DNA of 64,000 bases. Origin: Candidatus Peribacteria bacterium RIFCSPHIGHO2_01_FULL_51_35 (GTDB taxonomy: Bacteria > Patescibacteriota > Gracilibacteria > Peribacterales > Peribacteraceae). Below the pieces are notes generated by a model. It was given only the letters and a program-made list of their open reading frames with translations, did no database searches and had not been told where the DNA came from. The stretch is from positions 1 through 64,000 of the forward strand of contig MFXP01000009.1 of NCBI GenBank assembly GCA_001787535.1, read 5' to 3'. This document shows, piece by piece, positions 6,948-57,323 of this stretch (its first letter is position 1; the number at the start of each line of letters is the position of its first letter). The position numbers and the translations under genes were made by a program.

Positions 6948-7661
6948 CTACGGATCAATCTTCCCGAAATTCTGCACCCAATGATCGCCACTGAGGCCAA
7001 TGCCGATTTCGTCGAAATTTGGGCTGAGGATATTCGCTCTGTGCCGCGAGGAGTTCATCCAATTTTTCATGACTTCGGCGGGGGTGTTTTGTCCGTACGC
7101 TATGTTTTCCCCCGTCCAATATCCCCAGGCGCAGTTGCAAGGGGCGACGATGTAGCCCGCCGCTTTTATACGATCGAATGATTCCGCACCGTCGGGATTC
7201 CTGTGGCTGAAAAATCGTCGCTGAGCCATGTCCTCGGCATGCGATTGAGCCGCTTTGTGAAGCAACGGATGAAACCGGAGCAGGCCCAGCCCCGCTCGCG
7301 CACGCTCCGCATTCACCAACGTCAGCACTTCCTCGCGCACCGGACCGAAAACAGTCGCCGATGACGATGACACGGATGCGCCACCCGACGGCAGAAGAAA
7401 CGGCATGCGAGAAGGAGCGGAAGAAGGCGCCTTGCGCACGGGTTTTCGCACGATGATTTTTGCCGCACGCACGTCGCGTCTGGCATTGACCTGCGCAGTC
7501 AACGAAAGAGATGTTTTCTTATGCGGAGTTGCCGCATTCGCTCCTTCGCAGGGAAAGAAAAAAAGTGCGAACATGAAAAGAAGAATCGACGAATGTGCCT
7601 TCATGCATGCATGAAATCTTCCCATTACGAGTGCGTCAATGCATACGCGCAGGACTCGCAT
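6948..7661 (-). CDS. Secreted CAP/SCP-domain protein
   Basis: LTLVNAERARAGLGLLRFHPLLHKAAQSHAEDMAQRRFFSHRNPDG...GENIAYGQ...WMNSSRHRANILSPNFDEIGIG. Confidence 0.9.
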   Translation of the reverse strand: MRVLRVCIDALVMGRFHACMKAHSSILLFMFALFFFPCEGANAATPHKKTSLSLTAQVNARRDVRAAKIIVRKPVRKAPSSAPSRMPFLLPSGGASVSSSSATVFGPVREEVLTLVNAERARAGLGLLRFHPLLHKAAQSHAEDMAQRRFFSHRNPDGAESFDRIKAAGYIVAPCNCAWGYWTGENIAYGQNTPAEVMKNWMNSSRHRANILSPNFDEIGIGLSGDHWVQNFGKIDP

Positions 7662-7671
7662 TGACGGAAAT

Positions 7672-7911
7672 TTATTTGGGTGTTTTTTGCATCACTGTTC
7701 GTATGGTTTGACGGGCGTTGGCGTGGCGGCACGCATGCGCCCAGTCCGCTTTTATGAGGAGAGAACGCCCAAAAGCCAAGTCTACGATGTCTCCATCGTG
7801 AAGCAACGTATCGAACGAACACACTCGACCGTTTACTCGCGCAATTTTGAGGGATCCAAACCGCTTGCCAGCCGCCATGCAGGCGAAATCCAGAACGGAT
7901 GCGGGCTTTTT
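7672..7911 (-). pseudogene. Truncated 3' end (TGS-like C-terminus) of a RelA/SpoT-like gene, homologous to 17893..18132
   Basis: LKKPASVLDFACMAAGKRFGSLKIARVNGRV...HACRHANARQTIRTV matches the C-terminus of the 17893..19320 gene; homology stops just inside an upstream in-frame TGA. Confidence 0.85.
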
Positions 7912-7935
7912 GAGAAGTAATGCCGTTCATAGCTT

Positions 7936-8862
7936 TTAATCAAAAGGCATGAAGTATCCTGCCAGTGTTGCGTCGAAGCCGGAAGTCTCAATGCCTTCAG
8001 CCCTGATAATAGTCCCAATCCGAAGGAGATCACGGACTTCCTGCTGCCATTCCTGCCGAACTCGGGAAACCATTTCCTCGATTTGCTGGTCATTCATTGA
8101 ATACTGGTCGATGGTCTTCGGTTCTGGTTTCCTGTGTATTTTTCGAATGCGCCGTGAGATGGGCTCCGTAAAGTCTTCCAGTCCTGGGGTCGTACGACAA
8201 AAATCTTCCGCCAATTTCAATTTTGCAATGCGCTGCTCAATGGAGTCATCCCGAATACGGGCGACCACTGTCCGAAGGGTCAGAGAGACCCTGCGCGTTC
8301 TCAGAACACGGACTCCTTGGACCAGGTCGCTCTTCCGGGCTTTAATTCCATGTCCCCATTGTGTCCTCGCTTCAGCGTCCAAGATGAGCATACTGTTCGG
8401 CTCTAGCAATAGTGCGGTTTCTGGACTTCTTTGGACGCTTCCACGGTAAAAATCCATCATGCATTGCGACCCCAGACTGAGTGAAGCGACCGTCTCGCCA
8501 AAGCAGCGCTTGTCCCGGTGTCCGGAAATTCCCTGACCCGGAATATATTCATTCACGATCAGTTGGTCGGGTTCTTCGGTAAAATGCTTTTCCTTCACTA
8601 ACCGCTCTGCAATTTCTTTTCCCCACGAAGGAAGGGGTCCAAGGTAGTCACTCGGATTGATCGTATAATTGTCATAATCATAGCGCCAGCCATACTGCTG
8701 CACGCGACGAGTAAGTCCTGTCTCCCATGGCTGGCCGTCGATAACATTGAGGAGTTCATCATGATAGTGCTGAGAAATATACTGTGGCAGATATCGCAGC
8801 CCGGGGATTGCTGGAGGCGCCTCTCTTTCGAAGTCTCCGAAGAGTTCTTGTTGACGGGGCAT
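7936..8862 (-). CDS. AlkB-like 2-oxoglutarate/Fe(II) dioxygenase with ~110 aa C-terminal extension
   Basis: VNEYIPGQGISGHRDKRCFGETVASLSLGS...WGHGIKAR...RRVSLTLR: HxD, distal His, RxxxxxR; the ORF track start at 8916 is less likely. Confidence 0.85.
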   Translation of the reverse strand: MPRQQELFGDFEREAPPAIPGLRYLPQYISQHYHDELLNVIDGQPWETGLTRRVQQYGWRYDYDNYTINPSDYLGPLPSWGKEIAERLVKEKHFTEEPDQLIVNEYIPGQGISGHRDKRCFGETVASLSLGSQCMMDFYRGSVQRSPETALLLEPNSMLILDAEARTQWGHGIKARKSDLVQGVRVLRTRRVSLTLRTVVARIRDDSIEQRIAKLKLAEDFCRTTPGLEDFTEPISRRIRKIHRKPEPKTIDQYSMNDQQIEEMVSRVRQEWQQEVRDLLRIGTIIRAEGIETSGFDATLAGYFMPFD

Positions 8863-8944
8863 ACTGCGGGATAAAGGGATGAATATTCCTTCATGCCATA
8901 GCAAAAGGCAAGTCATTTCCCGATTTGAGGCCCAGGGCAGAATC

Positions 8945-8973
8945 TTGACAGTGCATGTTTATGCACTTATATT
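8945..8973 (+). promoter_or_regulatory. Sigma70-type promoter TTGACA-N17-TATATT with a palindromic operator in the spacer
   Basis: TTGACA at 8945-8950, TATATT at 8968-8973; AGTGCAT-GTTT-ATGCACT at 8950-8967. Confidence 0.75.
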
Positions 8974-9000
8974 CCCATACCTCTTCTTACTCATCTTCCC

Positions 9001-9771
9001 ATGTCCGAAGAAATTTCTAAAAAAGCACCTGAGTTCAGCACCGGAATCTCGAATACCGAGATCCTGATTGGCGGCATACATGATGCACTTATTGAACATA
9101 TTCGCGAGACGGTACAAAGGACAGGAAGCGTGGACATCAATCAAGCTGTGCATGATATTGTCGAAAGAAAAGTAGGTCCCGGCCGAGAAACAAAAGATCT
9201 CAAGGAAGCGCTGAAGAGAGATCTCCTTCAAAGAACACAGCAAACATTCGCTGCGAGACTGGGGGATGCAACACAGAAGGCGGCAGAAAATCCTACCGAT
9301 TCGGGGAAGATCGCTGAAAAGTATGGCATTGAACAACTGCGAAGAATGATCAAGATGCCTGGGGTGGATCCGGTCTCCATTCAATCGGTTGATGTGTATG
9401 GCCACCTCGATTCTGCATGCTTGAAAGCGAAATCGCTCGTCGGTGATAATGTCAAAAAGGGGGACATCTTGGTTCCTTCCTATCGGGGAAACCCCGCAAT
9501 TATCCGATTGGCGGATGGCACACAAGGTGCACACGTCCGCATCTTCGAAATCGGCATGGAAAAGAAAGGTCGGGTTTCACGCATGAAGCTCACGGAATGG
9601 CTGCGCAAAGTCTGCGGGTTTTCAAATGACGGAATTTTTGCGCTCAACGGTCAGACCCCTTATGAAGTTCCGACCCAAGGCGCTCCTCAAAGGATGCGCA
9701 TTTTCCAAGACGAGGAGGCGCAAGGCATGGACATGGTCAATATCCAGGACGGGCATTGGGCGAGGCCATAA
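9001..9771 (+). CDS. Hypothetical protein, first gene of the helicase-MTase operon
   Basis: 256 aa ORF behind a strong promoter; no family recognised. Confidence 0.75.
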   Translation: MSEEISKKAPEFSTGISNTEILIGGIHDALIEHIRETVQRTGSVDINQAVHDIVERKVGPGRETKDLKEALKRDLLQRTQQTFAARLGDATQKAAENPTDSGKIAEKYGIEQLRRMIKMPGVDPVSIQSVDVYGHLDSACLKAKSLVGDNVKKGDILVPSYRGNPAIIRLADGTQGAHVRIFEIGMEKKGRVSRMKLTEWLRKVCGFSNDGIFALNGQTPYEVPTQGAPQRMRIFQDEEAQGMDMVNIQDGHWARP

Positions 9772-9827
9772 TGGCCCGAAGCTTGTATTGACAAATACAT
9801 ACTTTAATGAATAGTATATAATACTGC

Positions 9828-12800
9828 ATGCCAGCAGAACCCCTGCCGCACGGGCAAACAGCTGATGTTGTGATCACTTCACGAGAGCTGATCCATGCCT
9901 TGAAAGTAGCCCGCGCCGAATTTGATGCACAGTACAAAACCGCCAAAATCAATCGAGGAAGGAGGGCGGAACATCTAGAATCCATCAGCACCCTTCACAT
10001 GGAATTGACTGAATTGCTTTCGGATACGAACATCGATTCCAAAGAAGCATCAGATCGCCTTTGTATACAGATCAACCAACGGCTTCGTCGAGTGATAAAC
10101 CGTCATGCAAACCAGAATCTCACGCACTGCATTAACGGAGCAAAAGACAAAGGTGCCTTAGCCCTTCAAAGCCATATTGATGCACTTCCATCTCTGGAAA
10201 GCAGAGCCTCCGCTGCTGAAAATCGTACTCCGATTCATGCAGCTTTACCTGTGATGCGAAATTCGATACAGACTGAGGGTTTGTCCACAGCGAGCTTGGA
10301 TACACATCGCACTGAAGTCGTATCCTCGACATTGAAGGAGGTTACGAATACCACGCCTATTAAAGAGCAAACGTCCGATGAACTACTGAAAGAATTGGAA
10401 TTGGCCGCTCAACCGATTCAAGATGGACAGAAGTATTCAGAATTAGCATACGAATTATACGATAGAATGCTCTGGAGTGTACTCCACTCTCATCGAAACC
10501 TGCTTCAGTGTGGGAAACTAGGTGACCACGAATTAATCGACGTGCGTAGGATAGTGAAAAATATCATGGACAGGCTTGCACTTGTTGGAAATGCTATTGC
10601 AACGGGGAAACTGGTCGTCGACAAAAAGAATTTGCTACGGGAAATCAAAGATAACGTCGAATCAATCACAGCCGGATTGTCATCCTCAAATAGTGAGCAA
10701 GGGAAATCGCGTGCCGTCGCCGATCATAGGGACAGAATCCTCCTTGAATTATGGGAAGCAACGAAGGAAGCCGTGGAAGACATCATCGAAGACGGTACAT
10801 TGCTTGCGGAGAATTCCCCTGCAGGAGCGCGGAAAAGCATCGATGAATTCTCGCCGGAGCATCAAGTTATCATTCGGGAAGAACTCGGCGCGACTCTAGA
10901 ACAAAGAAAATGGCCGACGGAGAGACAGATACACCGTACAATTCATCGATGCCTTGGGGGACGGACCGGCGTACGGGCAAGGGTATGGGGTGATTTGAGG
11001 GCCTCACTCCTGGAACTTTTTCACCAGGTGCGATACGTACCGGGTTTTGCCGAGAGAAATCTCATTTTACTCAAGAATAGGGTTCCGGCCGAACTGTCGC
11101 TGGGATTGCAAGAGAAACTTGCAAAGGAACATGAAATCATAGAAGCCCAATTCTCGCGGATCTTGAAAGCAAAGAATAGACTTCATATCGAAGATGTTGC
11201 TGTCATCGCTGAGATCATCGGTAGGGAAGTCTATGATGGGAATCGAATTTGGAAATCAAAAGGAACGAGCTCTGACTTTCGGGAATCAATCTATAGGCAG
11301 TGGAGGAAATTTGCCGTGAAAAATGGACTCCACAGGCATGAACGAGCAGACGATAGAATGATTCACACTGACGACCCACAGGTGCATCGCATTATCGACG
11401 AGGAACTCATGCCACTGATCGAAGCATCGCAATGGCCTACGGAACGGGAGATCCAATTCACCATTATGCGCATTGAACGTGAATGCCTCGAAGGATGCTT
11501 TGTAGGAAACTTTCCAGGAATACGCTCGTATCTCATTGATCTATTCCGTAAATCGGGAATTCGAGAGCGGCTGTACCTGGCATCGCGCGATCCCCATTCA
11601 GAACCATTTTATATAGGAAAATACAAAGGGCCGGCGGAACTCTCCAGGGCACTCTACACCTCACTGCAAAAAGAACATGGTGAGGTGAGATTATTTCTCG
11701 GGAACTTGGTTCCCACACAATCTGCTTTGACGCAAGATGACATGGAATTGCTTCGCCACACGGTATGGATCCATGTCTATGAGAAAAAAGCCATTTGGAA
11801 GAGCGGAACCGGACGCCCAGATATTGTAAAGCAAGATAATGATTTCGATGTTTTCGTACAACGGCTCTGGGACCGGCTAAAAAAAGATCACGAAACCTAT
11901 GTGGCTGAACGGAGGGAAAGGATGAAAAGCGAAGCGGAAGTTTTGGCATCTCGACAAACACGTACGGCACCTGCTCCTCCTTCGAGGCTCATCGACACGG
12001 AACAACCGATGGAGCTTTCCTTGGCGGAAAAAGCGCCACGAACACAGGAACAGCTACGTGGGAATCCCGTACAGGCTTTGAGCTACTTATGTGCGCTCCA
12101 CATCGCAGAAATTCTTTTACGCTCCTTCGCCGTTTCGTTAATGAAGAAAAGGACCATCCACGTAAGGCTTCCGGACGGAATGACTATGCCGCTGCGCAAC
12201 AGCATCGAATTTGATACTCACTTGCTCTATCACCTGGAAGGGGTGATCAAGACGTACATCGAACAACAGATGCTCGCGAAAGCGACAGACAATGGTACGC
12301 CGGCAGAAAAACTTCGTGCCTACAGCGCTCAGCATCCTGAAGCGGCAATCGAATTGACACAGGCAGTGATTTCCTCATGCCAATCGTATCCGTGCTGCCA
12401 AGGATGTCCGGAGGTTTTGGACGCGCTCCTGACCGACGTGCCACACATGGATGCGTTGCTCGATAAAGTTCCGGAATGTGATTGGAATCTTCCGGGAACA
12501 CTTCGATCGAAAGCATACGCTTCCATTCTCACTGGCCGCGATCCCATGATGCCATTCCTCTCGGAGGAAAGAGAAATAGTCGATACCTTTTTGCGAGCCA
12601 AAGGCATGGCGGCGAGAATCCAAAGAGGTGAATCGCCCGAGCTCCTCATGAATGAACTCGACGCCCAAGGCGCGTTCAAGGAGATCGCCAACATGATTAA
12701 TGCCGAATATCACGCAAATGACGACTTCCGCTCATCGAGGATGGTGCAAGAGGTTGCGCAGACACTATTCGATACGTATGGCGTTCCTACAAGGCCGGAT

Positions 12801-14057
12801 GCATCCGATGTGATGTATGTGATACATGAAGAATCTTTACCGCCAGAAACGATCGAGGCAATGGAAGAGACCATTCGCTGGGTAAAGGACATTCCGATGC
12901 CCGGTGCCAGTGGCCACATGAGCATGTGGGCAATGATCAAGGCACATGCGGATGTCCTCGAAAAATTCCTGGACTCAGGTGGACGTTTCATCACCCGCGA
13001 CCGTGCACTGAACTCCCTCGCTATGGTGAATGCCTGGCGCGAAAAATTAATCGACGTTCGAAGTTACAAAGGCGGTCAACGCCTGCGGCTTAGGCAAGGC
13101 ACGGATCCGGAAGACCTGGTCCGTTCGATTGTGTCTGGGATGATCAATGGCCCGAATGTGAAATTTGGACCCGACATCGATGAAGATCCTTTTTATTTTG
13201 CTCTGCAGAACTATAAGGGAATCAAAGGTGGGATCAAAACAATACGTTCGGCAATCGAAGGAATTTGTCTTGCGGAACGGGAATTGTCGAATATAGAAAT
13301 AGAAATTGGGGAAATCAGCTCACAAATTTCAGCACTGCAGAATTCCATTGCTGAGATCTCAGAACAGGATAGAAACGATCTTCCTCGCGTTACGAATGAA
13401 GAATTGCAGACTAATCTCGTTGATTTCCTTTCTCGACACACCGCACTGTACCTCCATGCGAAAGTCGCTTTGGAGCAACAAAGCGCGCTCATAAAGGCAA
13501 AGGAGGCCGTTTCTGCGAGCAAAAATGAGTTCGACAGCAAGGTCGCAGGAATATCAACGAACCAAACAAAACCAGAGGATCTGCCTGAAGTTGCGGCTCG
13601 CATGCAGTCCGATCTGCGAGTACTGCAAGAACTCGAAAAGCGTCTTTCAACCGAAGGATGCGTTTCAATGCAATATTCAGATTATGAAACAATTATGAGG
13701 GTCTACCAATCAGTACGCAGTGCGGGTGAGGATATCTCCAACCATGCTTTCGAAAATATTACTTCACCTATGCAAGGTGAAACGGTGGATATCGCGAAAC
13801 TAGAAACTGAAGGTACACTCCTGGTAGAGCGATGCCGCATTCAGAAAATGCGCAACGAAATGGACATGTTACAGAAAAACGTTGCGATTCTCACGGCGCA
13901 AAAGCAATCCATTGAAGAAGGAAGCTTCCCTGCGCTCAGGGGAGAAGTTGCCAGGAGAGCCTCACTGGAAGAACAATTACACGCTGCGGAAGAACGTCTA
14001 CGGGAAATCCTTGACCATATGAACGTACCACCTCTTCTGCGCAATTCCCATGATTGA
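9828..14057 (+). CDS. Large 1409 aa protein of unknown function, with internal duplication and C-terminal coiled-coil-like region
   Basis: Uninterrupted ORF; 8-nt overlap with the downstream gene; Cys cluster CQSYPCCQGC. Confidence 0.85.
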   Translation: MPAEPLPHGQTADVVITSRELIHALKVARAEFDAQYKTAKINRGRRAEHLESISTLHMELTELLSDTNIDSKEASDRLCIQINQRLRRVINRHANQNLTHCINGAKDKGALALQSHIDALPSLESRASAAENRTPIHAALPVMRNSIQTEGLSTASLDTHRTEVVSSTLKEVTNTTPIKEQTSDELLKELELAAQPIQDGQKYSELAYELYDRMLWSVLHSHRNLLQCGKLGDHELIDVRRIVKNIMDRLALVGNAIATGKLVVDKKNLLREIKDNVESITAGLSSSNSEQGKSRAVADHRDRILLELWEATKEAVEDIIEDGTLLAENSPAGARKSIDEFSPEHQVIIREELGATLEQRKWPTERQIHRTIHRCLGGRTGVRARVWGDLRASLLELFHQVRYVPGFAERNLILLKNRVPAELSLGLQEKLAKEHEIIEAQFSRILKAKNRLHIEDVAVIAEIIGREVYDGNRIWKSKGTSSDFRESIYRQWRKFAVKNGLHRHERADDRMIHTDDPQVHRIIDEELMPLIEASQWPTEREIQFTIMRIERECLEGCFVGNFPGIRSYLIDLFRKSGIRERLYLASRDPHSEPFYIGKYKGPAELSRALYTSLQKEHGEVRLFLGNLVPTQSALTQDDMELLRHTVWIHVYEKKAIWKSGTGRPDIVKQDNDFDVFVQRLWDRLKKDHETYVAERRERMKSEAEVLASRQTRTAPAPPSRLIDTEQPMELSLAEKAPRTQEQLRGNPVQALSYLCALHIAEILLRSFAVSLMKKRTIHVRLPDGMTMPLRNSIEFDTHLLYHLEGVIKTYIEQQMLAKATDNGTPAEKLRAYSAQHPEAAIELTQAVISSCQSYPCCQGCPEVLDALLTDVPHMDALLDKVPECDWNLPGTLRSKAYASILTGRDPMMPFLSEEREIVDTFLRAKGMAARIQRGESPELLMNELDAQGAFKEIANMINAEYHANDDFRSSRMVQEVAQTLFDTYGVPTRPDASDVMYVIHEESLPPETIEAMEETIRWVKDIPMPGASGHMSMWAMIKAHADVLEKFLDSGGRFITRDRALNSLAMVNAWREKLIDVRSYKGGQRLRLRQGTDPEDLVRSIVSGMINGPNVKFGPDIDEDPFYFALQNYKGIKGGIKTIRSAIEGICLAERELSNIEIEIGEISSQISALQNSIAEISEQDRNDLPRVTNEELQTNLVDFLSRHTALYLHAKVALEQQSALIKAKEAVSASKNEFDSKVAGISTNQTKPEDLPEVAARMQSDLRVLQELEKRLSTEGCVSMQYSDYETIMRVYQSVRSAGEDISNHAFENITSPMQGETVDIAKLETEGTLLVERCRIQKMRNEMDMLQKNVAILTAQKQSIEEGSFPALRGEVARRASLEEQLHAAEERLREILDHMNVPPLLRNSHD

Positions 14058-17000
14058 AAAGGAGCTCATCCGAAGGCAAATCCTCCATGCTACACATGAA
14101 ATTCAAGAAGCAGAGAAATCGAACTGCCCGGACGATCTTGCGATGCGAGCCGTGCGAGTATTTAACCGAATTCGTGGAGTCATTTTTGGCGCTCGCGATT
14201 CCATTGAGCATGTCTCGGAACTTTTTGACATCTGCGAATTGCTCGAAAATGACCCGGATGTTTCATCGTTAGTAGAACCCATTGCATCACTCATTCACGA
14301 CCTCCGCACGGAGGCATTGAATGATGTCCTCCAAGAACATTATGAAAATAAATTGCATGCCCTTGGGCATTTGGAAGTGGAGGAAAGCGAAAAAATCGAA
14401 AGCGAGAGAGCTCTTGCAGTCCTGATGACCCAACTGCTGCCAGCGCTCAAGCGGGAGAAAGAGCCCGTGGACATCCTCTGGCTGCAAGAGAATCATAATG
14501 CATTTTATCGTCGTATTCGCATTCTTCTGGAAGCAATAAATCCATCCGAGCCTGCGGCGGATTGGAGCATCGTTCAGAACATGCTTCCAAAAAACGTCCG
14601 GAATAAGTTTATCCCAAGCGCCGATGCTGATGAACAGGAAAAGCTGAAAGCATTCGTCAATGCGCATTGGCACATCCTGCAGCAAATGGGACCCGAACAT
14701 TTGGCTTCCTACCTCGCACGCCATGGACTTGTAAAAGGCGGCTTTGCCCAAGCACTGCAGGGCATCTCACCATATTTGGAACAATGTACGCGTGTGCAGC
14801 CTACTCCGCAGGATGTGCGACGATATCCGCCTGCACTCCTCGACGACCCGGATGAGCAAACATTGCTCTTCCTAAACATGCGAAACTACGCATATCAACG
14901 CCTCCAAGCAACGGGAATCGACAATAATGACCCTGAGGTGTTTTCGGCGTTATTTGCCCATATCCAACAAGACCTTCACGGGATGATCCCTGAGCCATCG
15001 GAGGCTTTCGATACGTCACCCTTCGTCTCGGTACATGAGAGAACCGTGTCCTTCTATGAAAAAGTATTCGACGTATCCATACCACAGCGCTTACGGGACA
15101 GCATACGGGTAAAGGGCAAGGACCACCGGTTTCCGTCGCTGCGACAACGCATCGCAATGGTGGACTGTGAAGAGCCGGGCACGAGACGCCTCATTCTGTT
15201 CCCACAAGGGACAGGTAAATCGGAGACGTTGTTCCTGATAAAAGAACACACGAAAGCGAAGAAAATGCTTCTCGTTTGCACAGCTGAAATGTTGAAAGAA
15301 ATCCCAGGAAGAATACGGCAGGACGAATGCGAAGAGGGAAGGGTTCCCTGTTATAAGAATGATGAAGAGCCAACCATCGGCATCATTCAGGCTGGGATCA
15401 CGTTCGAAGAACTTCGGAAAGCTCTGGACCAGGAAGTTGTCGCTGTCTCATACACGATGCTGGGAGAAAATTCTGGTTTCGAAGGCGAAACTGTCTTAGA
15501 ACATATCATTGGGCACTCGGATCCTGTGCGTGGCCATTTTGACATGCTCGGAATCGACGAATGCCAGCTCGCGAGCAACGAAAAAGGACAGACTACCCAA
15601 TCGGTGTTCCGGTTGGTCGACGAAATCCCCGATTTGTATGACAAGGGACGGATCATCATGACCTCGGCAACTCCGTTCCCCGGATGGCTCGACGACATGG
15701 TTCCTGCAATGCGTATCCTCGATCGCGAACATTATCGTGATGTCCATTCGGTTCACGCCGCAGTCACCACGTACGACCCACAAGAATTACGCGTAGCACT
15801 GATGCGCGGAATTCTGAATCTTGACCCTCCATTCGATTGGGAGCGGTATGTGAAACCCGCATATTATAAGTTGTCTGAAGGGCAAAAGAGAAAATACCAA
15901 GAAATATTGGAAGAACCTATGGAGCACACGCAAAAAATGCTGCAGTTACAATTGTGTTGCCAAAATCCCACGCTTTTACCTGGGAATTGCGACTCGATTG
16001 AGAATGGCTTCTATGAAAAACTAGCGGAAATGCTTCGGGATGACCTGACAAAGCATCATGCTATATTCTTGCTCCAAGATAAGTATAAACAGGGCATCGC
16101 TCGACCTCACGAAAAGAGGCCTGATGATACATCGACGATCGTTGAATTCTTGAAAAAGGATTTCCCCAAGGTCACATTTGAAATTATCGACGGTGATACG
16201 AGCCAAACTGCACGCCAAAACATTGTTGCCAGGGCAAAGGAAATGGAGCAGCAGAAAAATGGTGAGAGAATGGTTATTTACGTTCATTTGGGAACGACAA
16301 CGCTCGTTGGACAGAACCTCTCTTTTTCTTGCCGGTTGATCGTCCTGAATGGATTCCCGTGGAACATCACCGAACTCTCACAAGGCATCGCTCGATTTGC
16401 TCGGGAAGGGAACGAACCAAATGTCTCAGTAAGCGTCATGCAGCCGGATCCGAGCGAAGAAACTCTCTACCTTGGCATTGAACAGCGCGCACGCCATAAG
16501 TTCGCAGCCATTCAGCGTGCCACTTATGGAGGCACTGTCGCACAACATGATATCGAACATCTTGGTGAAGGTGATATCGGTGATATCGTCAGTGGCAAGA
16601 AACGCTACAAGTATGGTTCGGACATCCTCCGGCACCTTCGGACCTCGATGCAAGAAGTCGCTCTGTGGTTCAAGCCTCAGAGAGACGCAAAACATGGAAG
16701 TAAGGAGTGGAGGCAATTCCTGGAAGAGAAAGGCGAAGTTCTGGCACTGAAGTACACTCGAAAATGGAAGAAGACGACACAATGGAATAATGCCAAATTC
16801 AATGCAGGTTTGATCGAGCACCTTGAAACCGGGGGCATCATTCAGGGTGACCAATATCTCGATGCAGGATGCGGTCCGTTTTCCCTTACACTTGCTCTCG
16901 GTCCCGTGGCGGTCGGCTCCAACGTGCAAAAAAAGCGCATCATCGATAATCTCGATTTGAACCCGCATATGTTCAGGGTGGGAAGAAGGATGCTCTTAGA

Positions 17001-17832
17001 TCAGGAGATCGAAAACGTTCCCCAATGCTTCCACGCTTCGATAACGGACATGTCGCAATGCGTTCCCGATGGGAAATATTCCTTGGTGAATTGCGCCCTG
17101 GCCCTGGATTTAGTCGGAAGGGAGGAAGGAAAGGAGGATGGGATTCTCGGCAATGAAATGGTCCAAACGCTCTGCGAATTTAACCGGGCACTCGTTTTTA
17201 ATGACCAGCATGCCGGAGTTCTCCTCATCACATTGAATGACCGAACAATGAGTTCGGAGGAATTAACAAATATCTGTGAGCAGTTGCCACTCTTCGGATT
17301 CGAGGTTCTCCAGCTATACACGGGTGTTGGCCAATCGATTGACACCGGTACAAAGAATGTCTTCCAAAACCTGGCAATAGCATGCAAAAAAACTTCGCAG
17401 ATCGACCACAATTTGCTGGCAACCCAACTCGATACGACGCGATTCACAATGACTCCTCAGTCCAAAGTAACAAAGTCTAGGGGAACAGGAGTACAAAGTG
17501 GAGGCCGTCAAAATCGCTTTGGAGGAACAGAGCATTCCCACTTTCAAATCAACGGCTTGGATATCGATTGTGTAACGACGACGGGCGAAAAAATCGCAAC
17601 ATTCGTCAGACTTCGAGAGAAGGTTCAGATCGCGAGACAAATTTGTGAGAAATACAAGAGCCTTACCGGCGATAAGGCGCGTGCTGAACTGAAGAAGAAT
17701 GGAATGGAATATTTCGGCATGCCGACGGTGGGCTTGTGCGTTATCATTCAAAAAAGCAATGGACCACTCGTCGTGGACATCATGAATCCGGTATGGGATA
17801 TGAATGACGAAACGAAGGAAAACAGCCAGTAG
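14050..17832 (+). CDS. SNF2-like superfamily 2 helicase fused to a C-terminal SAM-dependent methyltransferase
   Basis: PQGTGKS (I), DECQ (II), SAT (III), VGQNLSFSCRLIVLNGFPWNITELSQGIARFAR (V/VI); MTase motif I YLDAGCGPFSLTLALG, LDLNP, NCALALDLVG. Confidence 0.85.
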   Translation: MIEKELIRRQILHATHEIQEAEKSNCPDDLAMRAVRVFNRIRGVIFGARDSIEHVSELFDICELLENDPDVSSLVEPIASLIHDLRTEALNDVLQEHYENKLHALGHLEVEESEKIESERALAVLMTQLLPALKREKEPVDILWLQENHNAFYRRIRILLEAINPSEPAADWSIVQNMLPKNVRNKFIPSADADEQEKLKAFVNAHWHILQQMGPEHLASYLARHGLVKGGFAQALQGISPYLEQCTRVQPTPQDVRRYPPALLDDPDEQTLLFLNMRNYAYQRLQATGIDNNDPEVFSALFAHIQQDLHGMIPEPSEAFDTSPFVSVHERTVSFYEKVFDVSIPQRLRDSIRVKGKDHRFPSLRQRIAMVDCEEPGTRRLILFPQGTGKSETLFLIKEHTKAKKMLLVCTAEMLKEIPGRIRQDECEEGRVPCYKNDEEPTIGIIQAGITFEELRKALDQEVVAVSYTMLGENSGFEGETVLEHIIGHSDPVRGHFDMLGIDECQLASNEKGQTTQSVFRLVDEIPDLYDKGRIIMTSATPFPGWLDDMVPAMRILDREHYRDVHSVHAAVTTYDPQELRVALMRGILNLDPPFDWERYVKPAYYKLSEGQKRKYQEILEEPMEHTQKMLQLQLCCQNPTLLPGNCDSIENGFYEKLAEMLRDDLTKHHAIFLLQDKYKQGIARPHEKRPDDTSTIVEFLKKDFPKVTFEIIDGDTSQTARQNIVARAKEMEQQKNGERMVIYVHLGTTTLVGQNLSFSCRLIVLNGFPWNITELSQGIARFAREGNEPNVSVSVMQPDPSEETLYLGIEQRARHKFAAIQRATYGGTVAQHDIEHLGEGDIGDIVSGKKRYKYGSDILRHLRTSMQEVALWFKPQRDAKHGSKEWRQFLEEKGEVLALKYTRKWKKTTQWNNAKFNAGLIEHLETGGIIQGDQYLDAGCGPFSLTLALGPVAVGSNVQKKRIIDNLDLNPHMFRVGRRMLLDQEIENVPQCFHASITDMSQCVPDGKYSLVNCALALDLVGREEGKEDGILGNEMVQTLCEFNRALVFNDQHAGVLLITLNDRTMSSEELTNICEQLPLFGFEVLQLYTGVGQSIDTGTKNVFQNLAIACKKTSQIDHNLLATQLDTTRFTMTPQSKVTKSRGTGVQSGGRQNRFGGTEHSHFQINGLDIDCVTTTGEKIATFVRLREKVQIARQICEKYKSLTGDKARAELKKNGMEYFGMPTVGLCVIIQKSNGPLVVDIMNPVWDMNDETKENSQ

Positions 17833-17892
17833 CTTCGCCAAATCCTCGACACACCGGGCCGCCAACCTCGATGGTTTTAAGAATGTCGGGTG

Positions 17893-19320
17893 TCATGCGC
17901 CCGCTTTTTGCGTCACTGTCCGTATTGTTTGACGGGCGCTGGCATGCCGGCAAGCGTGCACCCAGTCCGGTTTTATGAGGAAGGAACGACCGAAAGAGAG
18001 ATCCACGATGTCACCGTCGTGGAGGAGTGCATCGAAGGATGTGATCCGCCCGTTCACACGGGCAATTTTGAGCGCCCCGAACCGTTTTCCCGCCGCCATG
18101 CAGGCAAAATCGAGCACCGAAGCGGGCTTTTTCAAGTGATACAAGCGATTTTTTTCGTCGAAAATGATGAGGTGATCTTCGCGGAAGTACGTGCGCAGCG
18201 CCGCTTCGAATTCTTTGGGGGACCTGGCTTCGGTGCGCAGGCTCTCCAGGTTGCGGAACAGATTCACTCTGGCGGACGGACTGCGGAGTGCGTACTTCCA
18301 ATCTTTGTACGAACCGTGATCCAAACTTCCTTCTTCGCACTCGCGGTGCATTTCTTCGGTGCGGATTTGGATTTCGATGGGTTGCTCGGTAACGCCGGGC
18401 AGCGGATAGACGACGGTGTGGATGGAGCGGTAGCCGTTTTCCTTGGGTGCCCCGATGTAGTCTTTGAGTTTTCCGGGGATGGGATGCATGCGCGCATGCA
18501 CGACGCCCAGTGCTCGGTAGCAATCGCCTCGCGTGGGAACAACGATGCGGAGCGCCAAGCGATCGGTGAGTTCCCCGAATGTTCGCCGCTTCACGACCAT
18601 CTTTCGATACGTGGAATAGAGTCCTTTGATGCGACCGTCCAACGTGCCGGTGATGTCATTCTGCTTGAGAAGTTTCTCCAGATATTTCTGCGTATGGGAG
18701 AGACTTGCGTGGTCCAATTTCGCCGCAGCGGCGAAGGATTTTTGCAGGTGGTTCGCCGTGCGCGGATAGAGATGCAAAAAGCACGCGTCTTCCATTTCGT
18801 AGCGCCATTTTTGGAATCCCAACCGTCCCGCAATGGCCGTATACATATGCAGTGTTTCGCGTGCGATCTGCTTTTGGATGACGTGATCGAACCTGCGCAG
18901 ATGCCGAATGTCATTCACGCGGTGCGCCATGCGCAGGAACATCATGCGCGGTTCATGGACGAAGGCATCCAGCACTCTGTCCAGATCATGCGTGTCGGCA
19001 TCGATGTGCAAGCGCCTGAGCTCATGCATGCTTTTCACAAGTGACCGCTCCTCCTCATTCAATGGAGATTGTGCCAAAAATTCTTCGCCTTTCGGATGCA
19101 CCAGAAGATCATGAAGAATGGCAATGGAAAGCAAGGAAGCATCCTGCGTGAGTTCGCTTAAGACGCCTCCCACTTCGCATCCGTGCGCTGCATAGTTTTC
19201 CCCCGTGCGCCTTTTTCTGTCAGACAGATATTCATGTGCAAACGCACAGGCAGTGCGAAGACGCGACCGCGTGCCCAAGTCAGAAATATTTTTCTGCAGA
19301 GGACGGCACGCATCACTCAT
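17893..19320 (-). CDS. RelA/SpoT-like (p)ppGpp synthetase/hydrolase (HD + RelA + TGS-like)
   Basis: AILHDLL, HRVNDIRHLR, ...KWRYEMED, DITGTLDGRIKGLYSTYRKM, DRLALRIVV, KENGYRSIHT; C-terminal TGS-like region; start set at MSDACRP. Confidence 0.88.
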   Translation of the reverse strand: MSDACRPLQKNISDLGTRSRLRTACAFAHEYLSDRKRRTGENYAAHGCEVGGVLSELTQDASLLSIAILHDLLVHPKGEEFLAQSPLNEEERSLVKSMHELRRLHIDADTHDLDRVLDAFVHEPRMMFLRMAHRVNDIRHLRRFDHVIQKQIARETLHMYTAIAGRLGFQKWRYEMEDACFLHLYPRTANHLQKSFAAAAKLDHASLSHTQKYLEKLLKQNDITGTLDGRIKGLYSTYRKMVVKRRTFGELTDRLALRIVVPTRGDCYRALGVVHARMHPIPGKLKDYIGAPKENGYRSIHTVVYPLPGVTEQPIEIQIRTEEMHRECEEGSLDHGSYKDWKYALRSPSARVNLFRNLESLRTEARSPKEFEAALRTYFREDHLIIFDEKNRLYHLKKPASVLDFACMAAGKRFGALKIARVNGRITSFDALLHDGDIVDLSFGRSFLIKPDWVHACRHASARQTIRTVTQKAGA

Positions 19321-19692: not shown

Positions 19693-19737
19693 TTCGGATG
19701 AAGAATCGAAGGTAATACCCCGCTTTGATGGAATTGG

Positions 19738-19818
19738 TTTGTAGAGCCGCGCGATTCGCGCGGCTCTACAAACGGACAAACTATTATATGAGTGACTTGC
19801 GATTCGCGCGTCTCTACG
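19738..19818. repeat. GTAGAG-type palindromic repeat plus adjacent half unit
   Basis: TTTGTAGAGCCGCGCGATTCGCGCGGCTCTACAAAC, then GCGATTCGCGCGTCTCTACGG. Confidence 0.85.
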
Positions 19819-49425: not shown

Positions 49426-49742
49426 AATTTGACAAAAAATCGTAAAACACACACTATTTTTTTGAATCTGATCAATGAAATTGAACAACGAGTTTTAATC
49501 ATCCAAAAGGGCTAAACCCTATTACAAAACATGTAAGTCTTCGTTAAAGCTGCTCTGTGGCATTTTTGACGACATTTTTCGAGCTATTCTGTGCAAAATG
49601 TCCTAAAATCTTTGGCTTCAAGACGCCTTAAAGTGCTTATTCACTTCAAGGATTGACAAATGCCATTAAGGTAGTAGAGTTAAACCATTTATCGTCACCT
49701 CAACTACGCTCTCCAACCCTTATTTTTCTCTCCCACCGTCGT

Positions 49743-52700
49743 ATGAAGCGCCATCGTTTTCTCGCCAAGGTTCTCTTTATTTCTCTCGTTGCCACTCAAG
49801 TGCACTGGGGAAATTTCCAGAGTGTGCAGATTGCTGCACTCGCGCAAGCGGGCACGCAATGCAATGACGGTGTCGACAACGATGGTGATAATCTCACGGA
49901 TTTCCCAACGGATCCGGGATGCGCGGATGCAGATGACAATGATGAATTTAACATGCCGGTTGCCGCATCCACGCAGTGCAATGATGGAGCGGACAACGAT
50001 GGTGACAACCTGAACGATTTGCAGGATCCCGGGTGCACAGATGCTACGGACAACGATGAGTTCAATGCGCCTGCAGCCCCGCAGTGCAGTGATGGCAACG
50101 ATAACGACGGTGACGGTGTCACTGATTTCCCGGATGAACGCGGATGTGAGAATGCACAAGATAATGATGAAACGGATCCTCAAGCACAAACAACGGCGAA
50201 TGCGACAACCGTGAACTGCACTGCAGACCAGGTGATCTCCTATACTCCTGGTTCCTACACATATCGAAGAGATCCGCAAAAAGCATTGGGTGATCCAGAT
50301 GGGCACATCGTGAGTTTGGGAAACAACGGAACCATCACACTGAAGATGTCTCAGCCTGTCTTGAATAATCCCGGCAGTGGAGTGGATTTTTACGTTGTGG
50401 AACTCACACGACCCTACTGGCCATACTACGAGCAGGCGACTGTCTACGGGAGCGAAGACGGCAGAGTCTACCGACTCATCGGCTTCACCGATAATGGACG
50501 TAGAAACGGCCAAGTGCATGTTCCCATGTCTCTCCCAAACACCCTCGCTTCCGCACAATATTTTCGACTGTCAGATACCAGCCCCAGTTGGTGGCACGAC
50601 GGCTTTGATTTGGATGCCATCTACTCCGCTAACTGCGGCACGCCCCATGTCCCGGAATGTCGCGACGGCGTGGACAATGACAATGATGGTGTTGCCGATC
50701 ATCCCGGAGATTTCAGCTGTGCAAACCCGGATGATGACGATGAAACAAATCCCAAAGCGCAGTGCCAGGACGGTACGGACAATGACGGTGATGGAAAGGT
50801 GGATTTCCCGCAGGATCCCGGTTGTTCCTCCCGACAAGATAATGATGAATTCAATGCTCCGCCCCCGCAGTGTCAGGATGGCATCGATAACGACCAGGAT
50901 GGTGCCACGGATTTCCCGGCGGATTTCAGCTGCAGCAGCCCGACGGATAATGACGAAACCTTCCCCAAGGCGCAGTGTCAGGACAACCTCGATAACGATC
51001 AAGACGGCTTCGTCGATGCGCAGGATCCCGGCTGCCACACGGATGGAAACGCCGGAAATCCGAACAGTTACAACGCGCAGGATAATGATGAAGGACCGAG
51101 GCACGATGCTCAGTTCGTCGCGACGAAAACCGCCGACGTGCAGACCGTGCAACCCGGAGGATTTGTGACGTACACGATTGCGGTACGGAACATAGGACAG
51201 GTGCAGATCTCCGGCATTCGTGTCATCGACACCATTCCGACGGGTCTCACCTTCACGACACAAGGCTCCACGCCCGGTTGTTTCCCGCAAGGAAACCAGG
51301 TCGTCTGCAACGCCCAAACGTACAACCCGGGACAGACGATCAACACCGTCCTCCGCTTCCAAGTGGCGCAGAACGCCCCGTGTGGCGCAGGCAGAAGCAT
51401 CGTGAACACGGCAACCATTCAATTCAACAACGTAACGATTGCACAATCTTCCACCACACAGACACCCATCGATTGTCCGTCGACGCAATGCAGCGACGGC
51501 GTCGACAACGACCAGGATGGTGCCACGGATTTCCCGGCGGATTTCAGCTGCTCGAGTCCGAATGACGATGACGAAACGTTCCCCAAGGCGCAGTGTCAGG
51601 ACAATTTGGATAATGACGGCGACGGTCTGATCGACTTCCCGCAAGACCCGGGATGCACATCCAACCAGGACAATGACGAAGGGCCGGTAAACCGTCCCAT
51701 CTTCGCCATTACGAAGAACGGTCCGAGCACCATCATCCGCGGCGATACGATTCGCTTTCAAATCAACGTGACAAACACCGGAAACGTGAACGCAAACGGA
51801 GTCGTGGTGACGGATCCCATCCCGAGTGGACTGACCTACAACGACGCACAGTCTGATGCCAGCTGTGACGCGCAAGGAGGAGACGTAGTCTGTATCCTCG
51901 GTACGCTCGTGCCAAACCAGTCCAGGCCTCTCACGATTTCCTTTGATGTCCCTCAGATTGCAAATTGCCAGCAATCCCTCACTATCTCAAATACGGCACG
52001 CGTCACAGCAAGCAATGCTTCAGGGCAGACGCAGAGCCAGACAGTCTTCACAACGGTCAACTGCCCTCCACGCACGCCGCAATGCCGCGACGGCGTTGAT
52101 AATGACCAAGACGGTGCAACAGATTTTGCAGGCGGTGATTTCAGTTGTGCGAATCCGGACGATGACGATGAAACGTTCCCGAAGGCGCAGTGTCAGGATA
52201 ATTTGGATAATGACGGGGACGGTTTGATCGACTTCGGTCAGGATCCCGGATGCAGCTCGAAGCAAGACAACGACGAGTTCAACCAAATCCGAGCGAACCT
52301 CGCACTCAGGAAAACGGCAGACCGTACCACGGTGCAGCCCGGCGAGACGATCGTGTACACGCTTCGTGTCCGCAACTTCGGACCGAATGCCGTCTCGAAT
52401 ATCGTTTTGAATGATTCCTTGCCGACGGGTGTTCCGTTCCTCATTACCTTCACCCAGACGGACGGCTTTGCTTGTTCCGTCCAGCCGAGCGACCCGAACC
52501 ACGTGGTGTGCACTCGCTCATCGCCTTTGGCCGCCAACGCCACCGCAACCATCGTCATGCGCGCGACTGTTCTTGCAGGCGCACCTTGCAACGGACAGCC
52601 TCTCATCAACAGGGCACACGTGCAGGCACCGGGAACGGTTGACTCCGATTCGCAGAACAACTTCTCGGAGGCGGCAATAACCTGTGATTCCGATGAAGCG

Positions 52701-55700
52701 GATCTCTCCATCCAAAAGTTCCAAAAATTCGGCACGACCGTCGTCCGCGGCGGCGTGGTGCTCTACGAAGTGGTCGTGCACAATAACGGTCCCGCGACAG
52801 CTGAGAACGTTGTCATCGCCGACATCCTTCCGTTCGATTCCCTTGCGCAAGTTTCATTGACCTTCAATGCCGGACAATCTTCCCAAGATTGCGTGTTGAA
52901 CTTCCAAGGAACCAGCGTCCTCTGCAACAATTTCTTTTTGACGCCGGGGGAGACGCGATCCTTCACCATCGCTTTCAACGTACCGCAAGTTCCCAACAAC
53001 TGTACGCAGAGCTCCATCCAAAACGTGGCAACCGTAAGCACATCAACGACGGATCCGGACAGTTCGGATAACACGAGTAACACCGTCGTGACGACTGCCA
53101 TCTGTTCTTCTTCCAGCTCCAGCTCTTCCAGCTCGTCTTCCAGTTCTTCGGCCACGCCGCAGTGCCGCGACAACATCGATAACGACGGTGATGGCGTTAC
53201 GGATTTCCCGAATGACTTCAGCTGTTCGAATCCGGACGACAACGATGAAACCTTCCCCAAGTCGCAATGTCAGGACGGCATCGATAATGATGGTGACGGC
53301 CTCATCGACTTCGGACCGGATCCCGGCTGTGTCAGCTTCCAAGACAACGATGAAGACAACCTTGCAGCTGCGGATCTCTCCATCGATAAGACCGGTCCTT
53401 CCAGCGTCGTACGCGGAACGCTGCTCACTTACTTCGTCACGGTAACGAATGCAGGACCGAATTCGGCGCATAACATCGTCGTGGGAGACCAAATCCCGCC
53501 TACACTCTTCGGAAGCTTCAATGCCGCCGCCTCTCCTGGCTGCGTGCTGAACGGATCGCAGACGAGCGTGCTGTGCAACAACTTCAGCCTTGCTCCGAAC
53601 GAGAGCAGAACCTTCGCCATCGCGTTCAACGTTCCGACGGCGCCCAACTGCTCGCAATCCGTGGAAATTCAGAACCGTGCAACGGTTTCGACATCCACGA
53701 CGGATCCGGTGAGTTCGAATAACACGAGCCAAACCATCTCGACAACCGTGCACTGCCAAGCCTCCAGTTCCAGCTCTTCCACTTCTTCGTCCAGTTCCAG
53801 CAGCTCCAGCTCTGCAGCCGTTTCGGACTTACAGATGACATTGGAAGGACCGCTGGTTGCCGCCGAAGGCACGACGGTCACGTACACGGCAAAGGTAACG
53901 AACTTGGGTCCCGCGGGCGTCACCGCTCCCTACAGCATCCGCGAAACGTTCCCGAGCGGCTTCCTGTTCGACATCGAACTTTCTGATCCTGATTGCGCCC
54001 TCACGGGACAGAACCAAATCACCTGCACGGGACCGGGCTTGAATGTGGGAGCCACCGAAGAGTTTGATCTCGTCTTCCGGATTCCATTCCAGATTGCATC
54101 GAACCCGAGCTTGCTGAACAGGCTGCTCGGCATTGAAACGGCGCATGCCGTCGGTCTCTGCACGACAACCGTGCAGAACACCGCTGTCATCGTCACAAAC
54201 CCGAATGCGGATCCGAACACCGCCAATAACACGAGCACGGTGAACACGCTCATCACATGCTCCACCGATCTCTCGCTCACGAAAACAGGTCCGAGCTCCG
54301 TAACACGCGGCGGCACCGTGACGTACCCCGTGACCGTGACGAATGTCGGCCCCGGCCAAGCAAGCCAAGTGCGCGTGACGGACGTGATCCCGACGGGACT
54401 CACGTTCCAAAACAGCGACGGCAACTGCTCGGTGAACGGCGCTAACGTCATCTGCGAACTCGGCACGATCCCTGCGGGACAATCGCGCACGGTGAATATC
54501 ACCTTCAATGTGCCGCAGATTCCAAACTGCCAAGCATCCACAACGGTCTTGAACGTCGCCTCGGTGAGCGCCTTCGAAACGGATCCTGTCCTCACCAATA
54601 ACAGCAACGTGACCAATCCGCTCCAGACACTCATCAACTGCTCGCCGAATCCGTTCACCATCGCAAAGACCGATAATGCGACCGAGGTGGCTGCAGGCGG
54701 TACCTTGAACTACCAGATCACAGTGACGAACACATCTGCCCAGACGCAGAGCGTCACAGTGACGGACACGCTGCCGGCGAACACGACCTTCGGTACGGCT
54801 TCCAACGGCGGCGTCCACAATAACGGCACGGTCACGTGGTTCCTTACGATGACGCCGAACCAGCAGCTGACTCTCACGCTCTCCGCGCAAGTAAGCAGCT
54901 CTGCTCCTGCGAACTCCGTCCTCACGAACACCGCAAGCATTCAGAACGGTCCTTCCGCAACGGACACAACGACGGTGCGAAACGCTCTCACCATCACGAA
55001 GACGGACAACCGCACCACGGTGCAAGCCGGTGAAGCCCTCACGTACGTAATCACGCTGACAAACTCGTCCTCGAACACGGTAACCGGTGTGACAGTGACA
55101 GATCAGCTCCCGAACGATGTCACCTTCGTTTCGGCTTCGGATAGCGGCGTGCGCAGCGACCAGACCATCACGTGGTCGAACCTCGCCGTTGCCCCGAACG
55201 GCACGCGCACCCTCACGGTGCAAGTGACGGTGAACAGCAACGTCTCCAACGGCGTCACACTCATCAACACCGCGACCCTCAATAACGTCACGGTGCAAGA
55301 TACGACGCTGGTGCAAGGCACAGGCCGCGACTTCACGATCGACCTCACGGATTCCAAGGATCCTGTGGAACCGGAAGAGCGCTTCAACTACACCGTCCGC
55401 CTGACGAACCTGAACTCCAATGGCATTTCGAACCTCACGGTCACGCAGACATTGGACAATGATGTGGACTTCGTCTCCGCTTCCAATGGCGGCAGCCTCA
55501 ACGGCCGCACCATCACGTGGAACGACATCTCGATTTCCGGCAACGGCACCACAACGCTCACCGTGAGCGTGGAAGTGAGCGACGACGCCGACGACGGAGA
55601 TTTCTTGAATTCCACGGCTTCTGCCGAAAGCAAAAATGACTCGGAAAGCACGCGCGTGGAAGATGATGATGATGACGATGATGATGACATCACATTGGAC

Positions 55701-56573
55701 GTCCGCGATTCAGAAGACCCCGTGCAGCCGGACGATACGTTCTCGTACATTATTCGCATCACGAATAACGACAGCAGCAGCAAGCGCATCGACGTGACAG
55801 GATTCCTGGACGACAATACGGAATTCATCTCCGCTTCGGACAGCGGCAGAGAAACGAACAACGACGAAGAAGTGGAATGGGACAACATCTCCATCTCCGG
55901 CGATTCCAGCAAAACCCTTACGGTGCACGTTCGTGTGACCGATGACGCCGAGGACGGCGACACACTCCGTTTCCGCGTCCGCGCAGAAGACGAGGAGCAG
56001 ACCGAACTGACGGAAGTGGAAGATGACGATGATGACGGAACGAGTGTTGCCACGGTGAACGTGGACAAGAGTTCCGACAGGCAGGAAGTGCAGCCGGGTG
56101 AAACCGTCCGCTACAGCATCACGGTGCGCAACAACTCGAACCGCACCATCACGAGCGTCGTGGTGGAGGACACGTACCCGACATCGGACTTCTTCGTCTC
56201 CAACGTCGGCCAAAATGGCGTAAATAACGGCCGCAGCATCCGCTGGGAAGTCGGCTCGCTGGCACGCAATGAGTCAAAGACATTCACGTACTCTGCGACA
56301 ATCAACGGACGCCACGGCCAGACTTTCCACAACAGCGTGGTCGTCACAGGACGCGGCATGAACCAAGCCGGCGACCAGAACGAAGTGCGCGTCATCGAAC
56401 TGCTCCCGCAAACGGGTACCTTCGGCAGGTTCTTCGGTGGAAGCACCCTCACAGCCTCCACAAGCTCCGCAGACGCTGCGGGCACAGGCACGCTGCCATT
56501 CATCATCTGGACAACCATCCTCAGCATCGGCCTTGCAGGCGGAGGATTGATGGGACGCAGGATGTTCTTCTAG
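49743..56573 (+). CDS. Giant secreted surface protein: 13 Cys/Asp-rich 'CxDGxDNDxDG' modules + multiple DUF11 domains + Ser linkers + LPQTG-like C-terminal anchor
   Basis: Signal peptide; repeated C-D-G-x-D-N-D-G-D-G...D-F-x-x-D-x-x-C...DNDE; DUF11 repeats; LLPQTG...TM...GRRMFF. Confidence 0.92.
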   Translation: MKRHRFLAKVLFISLVATQVHWGNFQSVQIAALAQAGTQCNDGVDNDGDNLTDFPTDPGCADADDNDEFNMPVAASTQCNDGADNDGDNLNDLQDPGCTDATDNDEFNAPAAPQCSDGNDNDGDGVTDFPDERGCENAQDNDETDPQAQTTANATTVNCTADQVISYTPGSYTYRRDPQKALGDPDGHIVSLGNNGTITLKMSQPVLNNPGSGVDFYVVELTRPYWPYYEQATVYGSEDGRVYRLIGFTDNGRRNGQVHVPMSLPNTLASAQYFRLSDTSPSWWHDGFDLDAIYSANCGTPHVPECRDGVDNDNDGVADHPGDFSCANPDDDDETNPKAQCQDGTDNDGDGKVDFPQDPGCSSRQDNDEFNAPPPQCQDGIDNDQDGATDFPADFSCSSPTDNDETFPKAQCQDNLDNDQDGFVDAQDPGCHTDGNAGNPNSYNAQDNDEGPRHDAQFVATKTADVQTVQPGGFVTYTIAVRNIGQVQISGIRVIDTIPTGLTFTTQGSTPGCFPQGNQVVCNAQTYNPGQTINTVLRFQVAQNAPCGAGRSIVNTATIQFNNVTIAQSSTTQTPIDCPSTQCSDGVDNDQDGATDFPADFSCSSPNDDDETFPKAQCQDNLDNDGDGLIDFPQDPGCTSNQDNDEGPVNRPIFAITKNGPSTIIRGDTIRFQINVTNTGNVNANGVVVTDPIPSGLTYNDAQSDASCDAQGGDVVCILGTLVPNQSRPLTISFDVPQIANCQQSLTISNTARVTASNASGQTQSQTVFTTVNCPPRTPQCRDGVDNDQDGATDFAGGDFSCANPDDDDETFPKAQCQDNLDNDGDGLIDFGQDPGCSSKQDNDEFNQIRANLALRKTADRTTVQPGETIVYTLRVRNFGPNAVSNIVLNDSLPTGVPFLITFTQTDGFACSVQPSDPNHVVCTRSSPLAANATATIVMRATVLAGAPCNGQPLINRAHVQAPGTVDSDSQNNFSEAAITCDSDEADLSIQKFQKFGTTVVRGGVVLYEVVVHNNGPATAENVVIADILPFDSLAQVSLTFNAGQSSQDCVLNFQGTSVLCNNFFLTPGETRSFTIAFNVPQVPNNCTQSSIQNVATVSTSTTDPDSSDNTSNTVVTTAICSSSSSSSSSSSSSSSATPQCRDNIDNDGDGVTDFPNDFSCSNPDDNDETFPKSQCQDGIDNDGDGLIDFGPDPGCVSFQDNDEDNLAAADLSIDKTGPSSVVRGTLLTYFVTVTNAGPNSAHNIVVGDQIPPTLFGSFNAAASPGCVLNGSQTSVLCNNFSLAPNESRTFAIAFNVPTAPNCSQSVEIQNRATVSTSTTDPVSSNNTSQTISTTVHCQASSSSSSTSSSSSSSSSSAAVSDLQMTLEGPLVAAEGTTVTYTAKVTNLGPAGVTAPYSIRETFPSGFLFDIELSDPDCALTGQNQITCTGPGLNVGATEEFDLVFRIPFQIASNPSLLNRLLGIETAHAVGLCTTTVQNTAVIVTNPNADPNTANNTSTVNTLITCSTDLSLTKTGPSSVTRGGTVTYPVTVTNVGPGQASQVRVTDVIPTGLTFQNSDGNCSVNGANVICELGTIPAGQSRTVNITFNVPQIPNCQASTTVLNVASVSAFETDPVLTNNSNVTNPLQTLINCSPNPFTIAKTDNATEVAAGGTLNYQITVTNTSAQTQSVTVTDTLPANTTFGTASNGGVHNNGTVTWFLTMTPNQQLTLTLSAQVSSSAPANSVLTNTASIQNGPSATDTTTVRNALTITKTDNRTTVQAGEALTYVITLTNSSSNTVTGVTVTDQLPNDVTFVSASDSGVRSDQTITWSNLAVAPNGTRTLTVQVTVNSNVSNGVTLINTATLNNVTVQDTTLVQGTGRDFTIDLTDSKDPVEPEERFNYTVRLTNLNSNGISNLTVTQTLDNDVDFVSASNGGSLNGRTITWNDISISGNGTTTLTVSVEVSDDADDGDFLNSTASAESKNDSESTRVEDDDDDDDDDITLDVRDSEDPVQPDDTFSYIIRITNNDSSSKRIDVTGFLDDNTEFISASDSGRETNNDEEVEWDNISISGDSSKTLTVHVRVTDDAEDGDTLRFRVRAEDEEQTELTEVEDDDDDGTSVATVNVDKSSDRQEVQPGETVRYSITVRNNSNRTITSVVVEDTYPTSDFFVSNVGQNGVNNGRSIRWEVGSLARNESKTFTYSATINGRHGQTFHNSVVVTGRGMNQAGDQNEVRVIELLPQTGTFGRFFGGSTLTASTSSADAAGTGTLPFIIWTTILSIGLAGGGLMGRRMFF

Positions 56574-57052: not shown

Positions 57053-57220
57053 CGTTTGTAGAGACGCCCCGGCGGGGCGTCTCTACAACGGCGAATTTTT
57101 TAATTATTGCAGCAGTTTGATCGATCGTTTGTAGAGCCGCGCAATTCGCGCGTCTCTACGACGATGATCTTAATTTTCAAATCCGTTTGTAGAGCCGCGA
57201 CATGTCGCGGCTCTACAAAC
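57053..57220. repeat. Cluster of three GTAGAG-type palindromic repeats
   Basis: CGTTTGTAGAGACGCCCCGGCGGGGCGTCTCTACAACG; CGTTTGTAGAGCCGCGCAATTCGCGCGTCTCTACGACG; CGTTTGTAGAGCCGCGACATGTCGCGGCTCTACAAAC. Confidence 0.9.
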
Positions 57221-57323
57221 CAACGTATTCCACTTCCCACAATCGCGGCCAGGTATCTGCTTGCCGGCAGGCAGGCTTGGCCGCGAGTCGCAGGCAAGTA
57301 TGCCTGCTCCTTTTTGATAGTAA

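Follow-up and report, generated by a model that had tools for sequence, protein, structure and literature searches.

The stretch of DNA analyzed here, 64,000 nucleotides in length (the window), lies on contig C9 of an 18-contig, 1.2-Mb genome that is 99% complete. It was compared with genomes of Candidatus Peribacteria and Peregrinibacteria, the nearest of which belong to other genera. On the minus strand, positions 17893 to 19320 hold an intact short RelA/SpoT-type gene (relA) of 475 amino acids, with an HD domain, a synthetase domain, and a C-terminal part (Pfam RelA_SpoT, 3.5e-31; HD_4, 2.9e-17; TIGR00691, 1.5e-90). This gene is in frame and complete, and it matches its orthologues as far as their C-terminal region. 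A second copy of its 3' end, truncated at the 5' side, is found on the same strand at 7684 to 7911, and the interval of about 10 kb between the two copies is filled by four genes. Just downstream of the fragment is a gene for a CAP-domain protein (6948 to 7661, minus strand; Pfam CAP, 2.9e-21), which is probably the native neighbor of the original relA end. Elsewhere in the window, intergenic interspersed palindromes of the TTTGTAGAGCCGCGCG...CGCGCGGCTCTACAAA type, perfect or near-perfect and REP-like, were seen at 19724 to 19776, 57116 to 57159, and 57182 to 57223. An open frame of 2,306 amino acids (49653 to 56573) contains diverged internal repeats (70 to 85%) and, over the portion that was scanned, matches DUF11.

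Region-versus-region comparison of 7684 to 7911 with 17905 to 18132 revealed a direct repeat of 228 bp, gap-free and 79% identical at the DNA level (E value, 3e-51), which was also the top-scoring repeat when the whole window was compared with itself (E value, 1.7e-48). Each copy comprises the C-terminal 76 codons (KKPASV...TQK in one and ...MQK in the other) of the 475-residue gene, and 66 of the 76 residues (87%) are identical between the two tails. The longest exact run shared by the copies is 14 bp, and a k-mer misjoin during assembly is therefore an unlikely source of the repeat. An earlier note on this DNA had described a repeat of the relA 3' end in the same orientation, with mostly synonymous differences, and both observations were borne out (pS, 0.63; pN, 0.08). 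The extent of homology that it gave, 7672 to 7911, had to be shortened to 7684 to 7911; the final codons and the stops differ between the copies (TPK-TAA versus AGA-TGA).

On the gene-5' side, the similarity of the tails ends at GCGGGCTTTTT, 11 bp that are identical in both copies (7901 to 7911 and again 18122 to 18132, plus strand), and on the other side it ends a few codons before the stop. Beyond 7911, no similarity between the two regions was found in the region-versus-region comparison. GCGGGCTTTTT is a possible crossover point; a run of 11 identical base pairs at this border has a probability of about 7% at 79% identity (0.79^11, our own calculation). The in-frame TGA of the fragment, which the note had placed two codons past GCGGGCTTTTT, lies five codons out when the frame is translated. 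At its other end, the fragment has its own TAA stop about 10 bp farther on, followed by an imperfect GTCAATGC/GCATTGAC inverted repeat and then by the CAP gene; the hairpin that the inverted repeat would form is not significant against shuffled sequences (z, -1.3). A weak extension of the strong 76-residue match, with gaps, had made the C terminus of the adjacent AlkB-like protein seem homologous to relA residues 308 to 395 (7681 to 8187), and this match was rejected as spurious.

All 76 codons of the fragment are open, with no frameshift and no stop. Counting by the Nei-Gojobori method with our own script gave a dN of 0.084 and a dS of about 1.4, the latter near saturation, and thus a dN/dS of about 0.06. 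Since so few replacements accompany so many silent changes, both tails appear to have been working gene ends for nearly all of their separation and were evidently under selection until recently. Across 28 relatives, the two tails are equally similar to their counterparts, with a summed difference of 1 residue, and the fragment shows neither acceleration nor extra decay. The next-nearest relative matches only 37 to 39 of the 76 residues in this region, whereas the two tails are 87% identical to each other, which suggests that both come from one genus-level lineage. The simplest reading of these comparisons is that two species' alleles of one gene may have been brought together.

The short RelA/SpoT-type gene is patchily distributed in the family, with orthologues in 26 of 74 genomes (E value, ≤1e-100), in each of which it is single copy. 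Its C terminus is highly variable among the orthologues, and the downstream neighbor differs in nearly every genome; no conserved downstream neighbor was found among the 28 relA loci of relatives. A displaced or second relA tail was likewise found at none of these 28 loci, all of which are from other genera.

Both flanks of the interval look vertically inherited. To the right, the closest genome is syntenic with the window from relA up to the GAPDH gene (AP-endonuclease-type gene, 73%; PolyA-polymerase-type gene, 76%; GAPDH gene, 85%), and to the left, the gene for a solute-binding protein is present in 12 of the 12 relatives tested, with its best match (70%) in the same closest genome. The CAP gene is common in the family, yet it adjoins relA in no relative. 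An empty site with relA directly next to a CAP gene was found nowhere in the family, the nearest arrangement being a weak CAP-like gene (35%) about 5 kb beyond relA in one genome (G204). With a GC content of 48.8%, the interval is slightly AT-rich compared with the host average (mean GC content, 51.5%) but stays within the host range: 4 of the 87 host windows have a GC content this low (z, -1.7), and in tetranucleotide usage, 9 of the 87 deviate as much or more. Composition weakly supports a foreign origin of the interval.

The four genes between the relA copies encode an AlkB-like 2OG-Fe(II) oxygenase of 326 amino acids (7936 to 8916, minus strand; Pfam 2OG-FeII_Oxy_2, 3.4e-24) and, on the plus strand, three further proteins. 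The first, p256 (9001 to 9771; 256 amino acids), is an orphan with no homologue in the 73 other genomes of the family. Next is p1409 (9828 to 14057; 1,409 amino acids), which has no recognized domain and whose gene overlaps by 8 bp that of its partner, p1260 (14050 to 17832; 1,260 amino acids). The latter combines a Snf2-type helicase with a class I methyltransferase domain. Its helicase part matches the profile of a solved Snf2/Rad54 structure (E value, 6.7e-28), with no variation at the Walker A and motif VI positions, and for the methyltransferase part, Methyltransf_11 was found in homologues. Homologues of p1260, about 1,200 to 1,700 amino acids long, occur in 13 other genomes of the 353 in the class and mostly adjoin a large, fast-evolving partner gene. 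The best of them (34% and 29%) are in two genomes of another family, and matches within the same family are weaker. A cargo with apparently foreign affinities thus sits between flanks that appear to be vertically inherited.

A two-gene cassette of this kind, with a large, fast-evolving protein and a Snf2-helicase/methyltransferase of about 1,200 to 1,300 amino acids, was observed in 14 of the 353 class genomes at unrelated chromosomal places (L101 to L113 in the other genomes). In one of these genomes (G019), an AlkB homologue (49%; L113, 7999 to 8598) adjoins the homologous helicase gene. That two genera have an AlkB-like gene adjoining the helicase-methyltransferase gene suggests a functional link. 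PADLOC contains no described system corresponding to the cassette at 9828 to 14057 and 14050 to 17832 beyond a weak Snf2 match, and a literature search for Snf2/methyltransferase defense in Patescibacteria returned nothing. Judging by its domains, we would guess that the cassette has a role in defense or nucleic acid modification. No genes of the interval had matches in viral contigs, and no phage genes were recognized among them.

We consider it slightly favored, at a probability of roughly 55%, that the locus arose by a recent relA-anchored import from a congeneric donor species, with displacement of the old relA tail. The donor would have been a distinct species of the same genus, in which the AlkB, p256, p1409, and helicase-methyltransferase cassette already lay convergent with its own relA, and the donated stretch would have consisted of the 3' part of the donor relA together with this cassette. 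Homologous recombination inside relA would have produced an in-frame join and one complete relA, while the far side would have been joined inside the resident relA at about position 7911, without detectable homology. As a result, the last 76 codons of the resident gene, its stop codon, and its CAP neighbor would have been moved 10 kb away. In its linear form, this route would correspond to homology-facilitated illegitimate recombination, which is rare where it has been measured (PMC5361080). Alternatively, a single Campbell-type crossover by a circle carrying a relA tail would give an identical map; the two routes are inseparable here.

The observations on which this reading is based are the repeat, the silent-site divergence, the absence of decay, the foreign affinity of the cargo, the vertical flanks, and ComEC; from them, we infer the identity of the donor, the direction of displacement, and the route of recombination. 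In keeping with such an import, one border falls inside relA, a gene that donor and recipient would share, and the two alleles come from related lineages. The host genome encodes a member of the ComEC family (PF03772; E value, 6.2e-51), from which a capacity for DNA uptake is predicted, and natural competence and an abundance of islands have both been ascribed to Patescibacteria (PMC12455944). Counting against an import are the rarity of homology-facilitated illegitimate recombination, the weakness of the compositional evidence, the lack of a recognizable donor end at the far junction, and the relA searches of relatives, the whole family, genome contigs, and viral contigs, which yielded no donor contig, no same-genus genome, and no match above 64% identity.

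The direction of displacement depends on the position of the crossover. A crossover at the repeat border facing the gene 5' end would make 17905 to 18132 the incoming tail, whereas one at the 3' border would reverse the roles. The 5' side is favored because both tails are conserved, and a tail carried by an element would stay conserved only if it served as a gene end. The most economical, if unproven, assignment is therefore that the current relA 3' end at 17905 to 18132 is the incoming allele and that 7684 to 7911 is probably the host's own end. This is also the part of the note's interpretation that stands: foreign cargo lies between two copies, one allele completes relA while the other is 5' truncated, and a recent displacement fits the silent sites.

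The note had read this arrangement as att-like, and site-specific integration of that kind found no support. Here, a circular element whose attP carried a replacement relA tail would have recombined at the 11-bp core GCGGGCTTTTT and would now be defective or mobilized in trans. The map is that of e14 at icd, in which the 3' codons of the gene come from the element and a 163-bp piece of icd is displaced (PMC6379469); as there, the gene 3' end is duplicated in direct orientation and the target gene is in frame and complete. The identical 11 bp stand at the gene-5' border, and the genome carries two resolvase-family proteins and one tyrosine recombinase (PF00589 and PF00239 matches) on other contigs. 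When attP bears a replacement gene end, attachment blocks may be up to about 250 bp long (PMC10111431); these, however, are described as blocks of identity, whereas the present repeat is only 79% identical. Furthermore, none of the four genes of the interval has a recombinase match in Pfam, NCBIfam, PADLOC, or PHROGs (the predicted structure of p256, with a mean pLDDT of 41.6, is uninformative on a hidden recombinase fold), displaced ends are absent from all 28 relA loci of relatives, and the 13 homologous cargo loci have no comparable flanking gene-end repeats, their neighbors, where sampled, being ordinary or unidentified genes with no integrases. We regard such an integration as unlikely. 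A relA-anchored import is preferred over it because it needs only DNA uptake and recombination, because ComEC is present, and because a precedent has been proposed in Vibrio.

Somewhat more doubtful is an ancestor with two working tandem relA-type genes, in which arrival of the cassette together with a deletion would have left only the last 76 codons of the downstream copy, the current tail being native. The low dN/dS is equally compatible with two functional paralogues, and the relA-CAP empty site expected of a displaced host end was seen in no relative. However, tandem copies were found neither at the 28 relA loci nor in the 74 family genomes, where the gene is single when present.

It is very improbable that the helicase-methyltransferase gene and its 1,409-residue partner represent an unrecognized mobile element of Peribacteria that has no known recombinase and carries a spare gene end to repair its target. 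Likewise very improbable is that the fragment is a decaying remnant of an ancient tandem duplication of part of relA, its 3' end, with no relation to the cargo: the gene end alone is duplicated, but a free fragment should lose amino acid conservation, and with 76 codons lacking a frameshift or stop and a dN of 0.084 against a dS of about 1.4, it would have been unconstrained for at most roughly 6% of its path.

If a relA-anchored import is correct, recombination between species in an uncultured lineage with a reduced genome would have left its mark in the sequence of this locus, the displaced tail being a record of the earlier allele, and a core signaling gene would have served as the anchor for importing a large uncharacterized helicase-methyltransferase cassette without an integrase. 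The layout is real and already known in principle, and this locus is a new case. For Vibrio T6SS effector-immunity modules and for Rhs loci, imports anchored in a conserved gene have been proposed to leave orphaned 3' ends behind (PMC5361080); as in the reading preferred here, a new 3' end arrives with additional genes and takes over from the resident one, which remains farther downstream. In contrast to those loci, the target here is a housekeeping-type signaling gene, a single event rather than an array is seen, there is no obvious new specificity, and strains from before and after the event are absent. With e14 at icd in Escherichia coli (PMC6379469) and icd-type blocks (PMC10111431), the locus shares a 3' end that, borne by the element, keeps the frame while the original is displaced to the far side; it differs in having no recombinase, no recognized phage genes, a 79% repeat instead of an identity block, and no known second site, occupied or empty. 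Finally, as in the genomic islands of Patescibacteria (PMC12455944), cargo is exchanged within the group and competence genes are present; those islands were predicted by IslandViewer, whereas the one described here is delimited by the duplication of a gene end.
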